In this document: positions 60,630 through 63,308 of the stretch, in pieces
Layout of the letters: the number at the start of each line of letters is the position of its first letter
Numbering within the stretch: position 1 is the first letter of the stretch
Origin: Aequorivita todarodis
Lineage (GTDB): Bacteria > Bacteroidota > Bacteroidia > Flavobacteriales > Flavobacteriaceae
Assembly: GCF_028561335.1 (NCBI RefSeq)
Contig: NZ_JAQQTG010000006.1
Coordinates: forward strand, 186,317 to 250,316
Direction: 5' to 3'
DNA length: 64,000 nucleotides
Notes under the pieces: generated by a model
Seen by the model: only the letters and a program-made list of their open reading frames with translations
Told to the model about the DNA's origin: nothing
The model's database searches: none
Program-made: the position numbers and the translations under genes

Positions 60630-61013
60630 TTGTCGTTCACAAGCAAAACTATTGATCTAGGCTTCATTGTCATGGAGCTTACCGAACACTGTGTTACTGC
60701 CACTGTGAAGGAAGGTGTTTTAATTGAATTAGAGCATATCGCTGCGCTTCATGAAGTATTTGCCGAATATTACTCCGAAAGAAGTTTTGGTTATATTGAC
60801 AATCGAATAAACCAATACGCCATAAACCTAAATCCCGAACTCTACAATACTCGTTATGCCAAAATGGTTGGAATAGCCATTGTATGCTATACCGACAACT
60901 GTATCAAAAATGCAAATTTTGAAAAAACTTTCTACAATTGGCCCTTTGGCGTTTTTAAAGATTTGGATGAAGCAAAACTGTGGATTGAGAAATTAATTGC
61001 CGAAGAAAAATAA
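60630..61013 (+). CDS. SpoIIAA/STAS-like small protein
   Basis: A 127-residue protein, related in layout to the gene at 37860-38225: FGYIDNRINQYAINLNPELY, then AIVCYTDNCIKNANFEKTFY, then FKDLDEAKLWIEKL. Only a TTG at 60630 captures the first conserved-looking strand (DLGFIVMELTEH); the alternative ATG at 60672 would remove it, so a TTG start is preferred. It follows rsmD by 11 bases. Function unknown. Confidence 0.6.
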   Translation: MSFTSKTIDLGFIVMELTEHCVTATVKEGVLIELEHIAALHEVFAEYYSERSFGYIDNRINQYAINLNPELYNTRYAKMVGIAIVCYTDNCIKNANFEKTFYNWPFGVFKDLDEAKLWIEKLIAEEK

Positions 61014-61137
61014 AAAAATGCAGGCCTATAAGCCGGGTTCTGTCCCCGATTTAACATCGGGGCCTTATCATTTATCTAGACGTATGGTTACCCATACGCT
61101 CAATCTGCCTACCCTCCTGCATCGGGCGGGTACCCTC

Positions 61138-61155
61138 TCCCGATAGCTATCGGGA
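61138..61155. repeat. Dispersed 18-bp palindrome inside rnpB, copy 2
   Basis: TCCCGATAGCTATCGGGA, identical to the copies at 12097 and 62669, forming one hairpin arm of RNase P RNA. Confidence 0.88.
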
Positions 61156-61245
61156 CACAGGTTTACGTGGCATTTCACCGCATAGAGTTTACCTGATTTC
61201 ACTACAGCATTACCTGTACATCCTTTCTGTTGCACTTGTCCTGAA

Positions 61246-61265
61246 ATCCCCGCGAAGGCGGAGAT
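61246..61265. repeat. GCGAAGGCG-type palindrome inside rnpB
   Basis: ATCCCCGCGAAGGCGGAGAT, a hairpin with GAAG loop sitting before the conserved GTGCAACAG segment. It is nearly identical to the hairpin behind the dnaX slippery site (62522-62539). Confidence 0.8.
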
Positions 61266-61445
61266 CCCGACGGCCGTTAGCCGCTATGCTTCCCTGTGGT
61301 GCCCGGACTTTCCTCTCCCGAATTAACTTCGGCAGCGATAAGGCGGCCTGCTGCGCAAAAATACGCCAATGTTAATAAATATAGGAAAATACAAACAGCT
61401 ATTTTTTAAAAACCCGTTGTACATCTTTATATTTGTTTCCGCACT

Positions 61446-63308
61446 ATGGAACACTTCATTGTATCAGCCCGAAAGTACCGCCCCGCCGTTTTTAAAGACG
61501 TTGTTGGGCAACAGGCCATTACCAATACCCTGGAGAATGCCATAGAGAACAACCACCTCGCGCAGGCATTGCTTTTTACGGGACCCCGTGGCGTGGGAAA
61601 AACTACCTGTGCCCGAATTCTCGCAAAAAAAATAAATTCTGACGGCACCGAAAAGGAAGGCGAGGATTTCGCTTTCAATATTTTTGAACTGGATGCCGCT
61701 TCAAACAATTCAGTGGATGATATTCGGAATTTGATAGACCAGGTTCGAATTCCACCACAAGTTGGGAAATACAAGGTTTATATTATTGACGAGGTGCATA
61801 TGCTTTCCTCAGCGGCTTTCAACGCATTTTTGAAAACCTTGGAAGAACCGCCGAAGCACGCTATTTTTATCCTGGCTACTACTGAAAAGCACAAAATAAT
61901 TCCCACGATTCTCTCGCGCTGCCAGATTTTTGATTTTAGACGTATCGGCGTTCGAGACATCAAGGAACATTTGGCGGAAGTAGCAAAGGCAGAAAACATT
62001 GAAGCCGAAGACGACGCCCTGCACATCATCGCCCAAAAAGCGGATGGTGCCTTGCGAGACGCACTTTCCATTTTTGATAGGGTTGTTAGTTTCGCAGGAA
62101 AAAACCTTACCCGCGAGGCAGTTACCGAAAATCTGAACGTACTTGATTATACGTGGTATTTCCAAATAACCGATTTGCTTTTGGAAAACAACATTCCACA
62201 TGTTTTGGTTACGTATAACGACATTCTTTCAAAAGGATTTGACGGGCACCATTTTGTTATGGGCCTTGCCTCCCACTTCCGTGATTTATTGGTTTGCAAG
62301 AACCAGGAAACCATCGAGCTTTTGGAAGTTGGCGAACAGGTTAAAACAATGTATTTTGAGCAATCGCAAAAAACATCGCCACAGTTTTTAATTGAGGCCA
62401 TAGACATCGCTAACAGCTGCGACCTAAAATATAAAAACAGCCAAAACCAACGATTGCTCGTTGAGCTTTGTTTAATGCAGCTTGCTTCCCTGACCTTTCA
62501 GGGCGAAAAAAAAAAGCGTAATCCCCGCGAAGGCGGGGACCTCATGAAAGAAAGCCCATATCGTTTCGTAATACCTCCCTCCTATTTTAAATCTGAAAAA
62601 TTTACTTCGGAAAAAATAACTTCCGCAGGGAGTGTTGTGCCCAAACCTGCGAAGAAAATCGAAACAGATCCCGATAGCTATCGGGACGAAGCCGAAAAAG
62701 AAATAGTACGCGAGCCTTCCGAGGAAATTGCTTCAAAGAATAAAATTTCCGAAGAGAATATTTCCGAAGAAAAAGTAACGCAAAAACCGAATGGGGGCCA
62801 ACCCGAAAAGGTAATCGAACGGCCACAGATCCTCGCGGAACGCAATGCCAAAAAAGTCTCTGCCCTTTCGCTGAAAAGCATTCAAAAGAAGCAGGAAATA
62901 AAGCAGGAACTGGTTGCAAACCAACCCGATGCCGAAAACCTGCCGGTAACTGAATTTTCAGAAGAAGAAATGCAGGCGGCTTGGGACGAATATACCACAA
63001 ACGTTGAAAGCGACGGCAAATACAACCTGCTTTCGCATTTAACGATGGGCGTCCCAAAACTGGATGGTTCCGTAATCCATCTTGAATTTCCCAACCAAAC
63101 CATAAAAACTGAAGTGGAGCGTGCCAAATATGAATTGCTCGGCTTTTTGCGCGAAAAACTTCAGAATTATGAAATAGACCTGGACATAACCGTAAACGAA
63201 ACTGCCGAAAAACGGTATGCCTACACCACCCGCGAAAAATTTGAAAAAATGAAGGAGAAAAATCCGTTGATAGAAAAATTGCGGAGGGAATTTGATTTGG
63301 ATATATAA
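61446..63308 (+). CDS. dnaX: DNA polymerase III gamma/tau subunit
   Basis: A 620-residue clamp-loader ATPase. Walker A is GPRGVGKTT (near 40-48), Walker B YIIDEVHML, and the SRC motif TILSRCQIFDFR. The zinc-finger cysteines between lobes are absent (SDGTEKEGEDFAFNIFELDA), normal for this phylum. The tau-specific part after about 360 is low-complexity, Glu/Lys-rich and contains two repeat-encoded stretches (NPREGGD and PDSYRDE). A short C-terminal domain ends the protein. A programmed -1 frameshift at codon 357 would give a 358-residue gamma form (see the slippery-site entry). Confidence 0.97.
   Translation: MEHFIVSARKYRPAVFKDVVGQQAITNTLENAIENNHLAQALLFTGPRGVGKTTCARILAKKINSDGTEKEGEDFAFNIFELDAASNNSVDDIRNLIDQVRIPPQVGKYKVYIIDEVHMLSSAAFNAFLKTLEEPPKHAIFILATTEKHKIIPTILSRCQIFDFRRIGVRDIKEHLAEVAKAENIEAEDDALHIIAQKADGALRDALSIFDRVVSFAGKNLTREAVTENLNVLDYTWYFQITDLLLENNIPHVLVTYNDILSKGFDGHHFVMGLASHFRDLLVCKNQETIELLEVGEQVKTMYFEQSQKTSPQFLIEAIDIANSCDLKYKNSQNQRLLVELCLMQLASLTFQGEKKKRNPREGGDLMKESPYRFVIPPSYFKSEKFTSEKITSAGSVVPKPAKKIETDPDSYRDEAEKEIVREPSEEIASKNKISEENISEEKVTQKPNGGQPEKVIERPQILAERNAKKVSALSLKSIQKKQEIKQELVANQPDAENLPVTEFSEEEMQAAWDEYTTNVESDGKYNLLSHLTMGVPKLDGSVIHLEFPNQTIKTEVERAKYELLGFLREKLQNYEIDLDITVNETAEKRYAYTTREKFEKMKEKNPLIEKLRREFDLDI
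62510..62539 (+). other. Candidate programmed -1 frameshift site in dnaX
   Basis: Heptamer A-AAA-AAG at 62510-62516 lies in the zero frame as X-XXY-YYZ, within a run of ten A (62506-62515). After a -1 slip the next codons are GCG then TAA (62519-62521), ending the protein one residue after the slip. A perfect 7-bp hairpin TCCCCGC-GAAG-GCGGGGA follows at 62522-62539, five bases from the slip. AGGG at 62500-62503 is a weak upstream Shine-Dalgarno-like element. The parts match the E. coli dnaX recoding signal; transcriptional slippage on A10 is an alternative. Confidence 0.75.
62669..62686. repeat. Dispersed 18-bp palindrome inside dnaX, copy 3
   Basis: TCCCGATAGCTATCGGGA in the tau-specific linker, translated as part of DPDSYRDEA. 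Confidence 0.88.

Follow-up and report, generated by a model that had tools for sequence, protein, structure and literature searches.

A conserved run of ten adenines behind an RNA hairpin in dnaX of Aequorivita and other Bacteroidia: a probable programmed slippage cassette

Results

The dnaX locus and its slip site

The window, the whole 64,000-nucleotide stretch of the Aequorivita todarodis genome analysed here, carries dnaX on its forward strand (61446..63308). The 620-residue tau reading frame spans the gene and contains the Pfam domains DNAX_ATPase_lid (residues 172-217) and DNA_pol3_gamma3 (residues 222-349), and the RNase P RNA is encoded divergently from it on the reverse strand (61013..61354). 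Directly after domain III of the protein (the Pfam match at 222-349), the codons read GGC GAA AAA AAA AAG CGT AAT and thus hold a run of ten As on the forward strand (62506..62515). An earlier note on this DNA had described here an in-phase A AAA AAG heptamer, a stop soon after a -1 slip and a 7-bp hairpin five bases past the heptamer, and had predicted a tau of 620 and a gamma of 358 residues; the recomputed frames agree with all of this. The heptamer occupies 62510-62516, and the -1 frame, entered by the gain of one nucleotide, closes at once in a TAA (62519..62521), so that the 358-residue product ends in GEKKKA. The +1 frame, entered by the loss of one nucleotide, ends in a TGA (62545..62547) and yields a product of 366 residues. 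Tau is encoded in frame 0, unlike the two-ORF form of dnaX, in which frame 0 encodes gamma.

A hairpin lies on either side of the run, both on the forward strand. The one on the 3' side (62522..62539), TCCCCGC-GAAG-GCGGGGA, has a computed energy of -15.0 kcal/mol. The other, absent from the earlier note, lies on the 5' side (62488..62503); its six base pairs, CCCTGA/TCAGGG, enclose a CCTT loop and end 2 nt before the run, and it is the stimulator that we propose.

Across both strands of the 3.33-Mb genome there are 24 matches to A10, representing 22 distinct runs. Of these 22, four are located over 100 codons into stop-to-stop frames of at least 168 aa, and six others sit near the beginning (codons 1-42) of long frames with putative start codons. 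Because so few of the genome's A10 runs lie deep inside long frames, the one in dnaX is more than a chance occurrence. The three other deep runs (L234, L241 and L244) have little upstream fold (0, -0.8 and -2.2 kcal/mol); by eye, one of the genes concerned resembles a glycosyltransferase and another a gliding-type surface protein.

Conservation of the run and of the flanking stops

We compared 216 dnaX loci: 28 from the genus Aequorivita, 108 from other members of the family and 80 from the class. The family set covers 108 of 114 matching genomes outside the genus (G042, G081, G088, G091, G093 and G107 were left out), and the class set covers 80 of the 116 matching genomes besides the window's, about one per genus, including two loci of the same family (L154, L233) and one of the same order (L168). 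The run was sought near the end of the conserved match, a procedure that runs elsewhere would escape. Stems were counted in the 201 loci with a run of at least nine As, and stops in the 158 of those that have tau in frame.

A run of at least nine As is present in all 28 genus loci, in 106 of the 108 other family loci and in 67 of the 80 class loci, as well as in 70 of 80 named loci, some of which repeat genomes of the other sets. The most frequent length is exactly ten, more than a ribosomal heptamer needs: the genus has A10 in 27 loci and A11 in one; the rest of the family has A10 in 84, A11 in 16, A9 in five, and A13, A8 and no run in one each; and the class has A10 in 54, A9 in ten, A11 in three, and a shorter run or none in 13. 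The searched stretch of three Bacteroidaceae/Bacteroides loci (L363, L369, L400), where tau is in frame, holds no A-run. Two of the three genes with a GC content above 55% (63% and 69%) still have A10. A chance run in a lysine-rich, AT-rich linker was considered and rejected on the rarity of long A runs elsewhere in the dnaX stretches: at least nine consecutive As occur there 0 times in about 53 kb of the genus, 0 times in 204 kb of the family and nine times in 152 kb of the class, with Lys-Lys elsewhere encoded as AAA-AAA in 358 of 735 cases.

The base that follows the run varies within the genus (G in nine, C in 17 and T in two), leaving the A AAA AAG form in nine of 28 congeners. The -1 stop is conserved in the genus (computed for 27-28 loci), and across the 158 tau-in-frame loci a -1 stop within five codons is found in 98.7% against 43% of control positions, a +1 stop within 12 codons in 97.5% against 59%, and both together in 96.2% against 25%.

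A hairpin directly 5' of the run

Comparison of the sequences places the conserved structure at this site immediately 5' of the run, as a hairpin whose pairs covary in the family and whose signal weakens beyond it. The 40 nt upstream of the run fold at -8.1 (genus), -7.9 (family) and -7.7 kcal/mol (class), against -4.3, -3.9 and -4.9 for the respective controls. Where the window has CCCTGA-CCTT-TCAGGG at 2 nt from the run, the common family form, CTCYATCA-NTTT-TGATGGAG, has no gap to it, and strong gapless stems are seen in 61 of the 106 family loci outside the genus. Both forms stand in the same register, yet their inner pairs differ on both sides (ATC/GAT versus CTG/CAG). Distant relatives such as Rufibacter hautae have stems of unrelated sequence in the same place. 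With regard to an upstream Shine-Dalgarno-like stimulator of the E. coli type, the 3' arm holds AGGG in the genus and GGAG in the common family form; the distant stems do not resemble a Shine-Dalgarno sequence by eye.

Bulge-free stems (score at least 13) that end 0-2 nt from the run were found in 23 of 28 loci in the genus, 71 of 106 in the family and 13 of 67 in the class. At 399 control positions such stems average 2-3%, with maxima of 64% (genus), 25% (family) and 10% (class) that are all below the observed values, these position counts being uncorrected for kinship. Clear 5' stems are thus a minority outside the family, all the more so as two of the 13 class loci are family members. Relative to synonymous-codon shuffles, the mean z is -1.65 in the genus, -1.89 in the family and -0.89 in the class, while eight control sites per group range from -0.89 to 0.37, from -0.41 to 0.09 and from -0.66 to 0.33, respectively; the class value is thus not far from the lowest of its own controls, and a single control site in the genus went as low as -0.89.

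The alignment used for covariation has 134 family rows, 97 of them distinct. Sliding the partners out of register served as the control. In the distinct rows, 75.8% of cells pair, and no slide exceeds 54.7%; double-sided changes number 67 cells, where slides give 27 or fewer; and the covariation score of 0.319 compares with a slid maximum of 0.152. The number of pairs changed on both sides (seven of eight) does not discriminate, since slide -2 equals it, as do 31 of 500 shuffles; the pair-type count is reached by 23 of 500. RNAalifold, given all 134 family rows together, returned no structure. Independent contrasts, too few to test, favour pairing at columns 15 and 17 and are neutral at column 18; those of A11 versus stem and of split gene versus stem had too few supported pairs to give a result.

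Within the family, a strong stem within 0-3 nt accompanies A10 in 86 of 111 loci and A11 in seven of 17 (Fisher test of A10 versus at least 11 As, p 0.008, not corrected for kinship), a difference that is absent in the class (15 of 54 versus one of three).

The 3' hairpin and the dispersed palindromes

The earlier note had regarded the 3' hairpin as a dispersed repeat. This is borne out by its core, CCCGCNNNNGCGGG, with 32 copies in the genome against two for the reversed control (in six of the 32 the loop differs from that of this repeat), and by a one-mismatch copy in an arm of the RNase P RNA (61248-61263); the consensus of the repeat is, by eye, near AATnCCCGCGnAGGCGGGnATCTCnTGA. A second dispersed palindrome, CCCGATAGCTATCGGG, with 35 genome copies against none for its reversed control, lies in frame in the tau linker on the forward strand (62670..62685). 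Both palindromes also occur in the RNase P RNA, where the copies at 61139-61154 and 61248-61263 are insertions relative to the Rfam model. In G002, G026 and G023, repeat copies about 170-180 nt before dnaX match the distance of the rnpB copy, which suggests that these genomes have it too. Several of the 35 copies of CCCGATAGCTATCGGG stand beside tRNA genes (G000:C11:226923-227166, C8:134067-134220, C50:16226-18350, C38:494 and C38:49653), and five copies spaced 57 nt apart stand just before a tRNA-Leu.

The role that the note had given to this hairpin, that of a repeat palindrome turned recoding element in an E. coli-type layout, did not hold up on comparison with relatives, even though the A-run itself proved conserved in all 28 genus loci. 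Between the run and the conserved motif that follows it lie 16-19 nt in 21 of the 28 genus genomes and 46-49 nt in the other seven, and the repeat lies within this extra stretch of about 30 nt. Its stem is intact in three of the 28 (L016, which is the window, L020 and L025), decayed in inserts of the same length in L022, L034 and perhaps L041, and absent in the sisters L017 and L018, whose protein is 98% identical; L043 has a longer stretch after the run with no recognisable repeat. With L016, L020, L022, L025, L034 and L041 scored as carriers, repeat presence changes five times on a gene tree in which 16 of 34 inner branches are weak. All three intact inserts share GACCTC after the palindrome, a sequence found in two of the 55 repeat copies listed, both in dnaX (G000, G008), and differing in the other 53; this suggests a single insertion event, inherited or passed on by recombination. 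Downstream of the run, 40-nt segments fold at mean energies of -3.9 (genus), -2.7 (family) and -5.6 kcal/mol (class); the first two are no better than at control positions, and the class value is slightly better than its control of -4.9. The 3' repeat was accordingly rejected as a general stimulator. What stands of the earlier proposal is the frameshift site predicted to give a 358-residue gamma, and what falls is the 3' hairpin as its conserved stimulator; the latter is probably a later repeat insertion not needed by the slippage device.

Split genes and switching of the frame

A short 0-frame dnaX ORF is found in 46 of the 216 loci. In 36 of these, the tau C-terminus could be placed by tblastn (E 1e-5 for the family or 1 for the class; weak class placings include L230, E 0.003, and L226, E 4e-5), and it lies in the -1 frame in 31 and in the +1 frame in five. 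Hence, 31 of the 36 placed split genes require a net gain of one nucleotide or loss of two. The tau-in-frame and split states change 34 times on a FastTree tree. Split genes are also present in single-contig genomes (G050, G052, G087) and in named strains, such as Flavobacterium denitrificans DSM 15936, Chryseobacterium lathyri and Halpernia humi. With A9 where otherwise similar loci have A10, L121 illustrates how a switch of frame can come from a single base gained or lost in the run. In L148 (G047), the run is lost and the gamma and tau parts are still in different frames; L232 and L151 have short A-runs. Strong stems are rarer in the split genes of the family (10 of 19) than in its tau-in-frame genes (85 of 115).

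Discussion

The observations above probably reflect an old programmed slippage cassette in dnaX, in which an RNA hairpin, an A10 run and stops in both other frames follow one another and on which the RNA polymerase would slip. The parts of this cassette, their conservation, their spacing and the frequent change of the DNA frame can be read from the genomes, and from these we infer the polymerase rather than the ribosome as the slipping machine. A stem followed by a homopolymer resembles an intrinsic terminator in geometry. The polymerase would slip while the RNA-DNA hybrid, about as long as the run, consists entirely of A-T pairs, and a hairpin forming in the nascent RNA where the hybrid ends upstream would promote realignment in the manner of a terminator but without release. 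The resulting mRNAs would vary in the length of their A-run, such that one frame gives tau and the other two end within a few codons to give gamma (domains I-III). Under this mechanism, it would matter little which product is in frame in the genome, and tau and gamma could thus trade places in evolution. In Thermus polymerase, the hybrid measures 9-10 bp (PMC5009743). A more far-reaching form of the proposal, in which a module of nascent-RNA hairpin and A10, with a run as long as the polymerase hybrid, sets the tau:gamma ratio at transcription throughout the class, is one on which we are evenly divided; here the frame past the run would be nearly neutral (about 34 flips), and the need to keep bases paired would go so far as to steer which amino acids change (Ile/Asp with Leu/Gln) where the hairpin is encoded.

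The chief rival is slippage or sliding of the ribosome on the A-run, with an E. coli-like -1 shift at A AAA AAG or A AAA AAA, no slippage of the polymerase, and stimulation by the 3' repeat in the window. We consider it unlikely, though it deserves serious weight. The window has the in-phase heptamer with a 7-bp stem five bases on, and ribosomes are known to slide on homopolymeric A in E. coli (PMC4363877). Moreover, as in E. coli, a single tRNA-Lys (UUU) and no CUU species were found among the typed tRNAs (34 of 35 hits, with 150 of 194 first-look candidates scored), which makes a ribosomal slip on A AAA AAG possible; the remaining hit, of 88 nt, is presumably too long for a tRNA-Lys. Against such a shift stand the varying base after the run in the genus, a 3' structure that exceeds control level slightly in the class and not at all in the genus or family, the nearly identical sisters that lack the 3' hairpin, a run held at ten As rather than seven, and split genes with tau in either of the other frames. 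Furthermore, an upstream hairpin adjoining the shift site attenuates -1 ribosomal frameshifting (PMC6321510). A stem so near behind the decoding site should also be unwound while the ribosome reads the run.

Polymerase slippage, in turn, does not predict that strong stems are less frequent in the split genes of the family, which depend on slippage for tau. A further point against it comes from the hairpin-driven slippage of an insertion sequence (IS), which deletes one base; to make tau, most of the placed split genes would have to gain one or lose two.

It is improbable that both layers operate, with polymerase slippage everywhere and, in the few repeat carriers, a co-opted repeat that aids ribosomal frameshifting. 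All three intact inserts do lie 5 nt past A AAA AAG with the -1 stop in the spacer, but the shared GACCTC makes them look like one insertion spread by descent or recombination, and the stems have decayed in other inserts of the same length. Phase variation at the DNA level, with replication slippage on the run toggling tau on and off between cells, would fit the differences in run length and frame between species but is very improbable, as A10 recurs throughout the class with the hairpin beside it in many loci and on/off switching would ill suit a replication gene.

Polymerase slippage on dnaX has precedents. The Thermus thermophilus gene undergoes programmed transcriptional slippage on nine As (PMC5009743, PMC1088944), and PMC5009743 reviews it along with the E. 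coli and reversed forms of dnaX. Like Thermus, the genes studied here combine a conserved A-run of at least nine As with nearby stops in both other frames, and tau and gamma would come from one gene. They differ in that a hairpin abuts the run, none being mentioned for Thermus in the accessible parts of these sources, and in having apparently one tRNA-Lys rather than two. Two-ORF dnaX genes with ten As are likewise already known: in 2013, GeneTack yielded 17 two-ORF dnaX fs-genes from 12 genera, nine with 10 As, for which slippage of the Thermus type was proposed (PMC3711429). In these, as in our split genes, frame 0 encodes gamma, the -1 frame encodes tau, and runs of ten As occur. However, that set is all -1, with no hairpin mentioned in the portions of the paper at hand, whereas here tau-in-frame and split forms interchange throughout the class and some are +1. 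The same source regards slippage in both directions within one gene as indicating the polymerase; by that standard, tau in the -1 or +1 frame of split dnaX supports slippage of the polymerase. Full-text searches of largely open-access literature, judged mostly on titles and the beginnings of abstracts, turned up neither the 5' hairpin nor the class-wide reach nor such frequent switching of frame.

The hairpin has its closest parallel in a Roseiflexus IS, where transcriptional slippage on a T5C5 motif depends on a stem-loop and deletes one base (PMC5009743). Both cases have a nascent-RNA stem-loop adjoining the slippage motif immediately on its 5' side, here less clearly outside the family, but they differ in that one concerns an IS and a T5C5 motif and the other a replication gene and a homopolymer. 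The E. coli gene, with its A AAA AAG, short spacer, 3' stem-loop and early -1 stop, is matched in the window species, where the in-phase heptamer and immediate -1 stop are found; across relatives, however, the 3' stem-loop is not conserved, the slippery context is longer and variable, and the conserved structure lies 5' of the run. As for the repeat itself, palindromic repeats inserted in genes include the Rickettsia RPEs and the REP-like palindromes. The present elements resemble these as short palindromes in frame in a protein gene, and they also lie in the RNase P RNA; our literature search found no report of Rickettsia RPEs inside RNase P RNA.

More generally, these findings correct the reading of the repeat palindrome as the recoding element. 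If the proposed mechanism is true, stem-loop-assisted polymerase slippage, a mode described, in the source available to us, for an IS, would be a conserved mode of expression of an essential replication gene. Natural variants in stem strength, run length and frame are available for tests of the mechanism, and the short or split dnaX frames of many Bacteroidota genomes may be genuine features, not errors.
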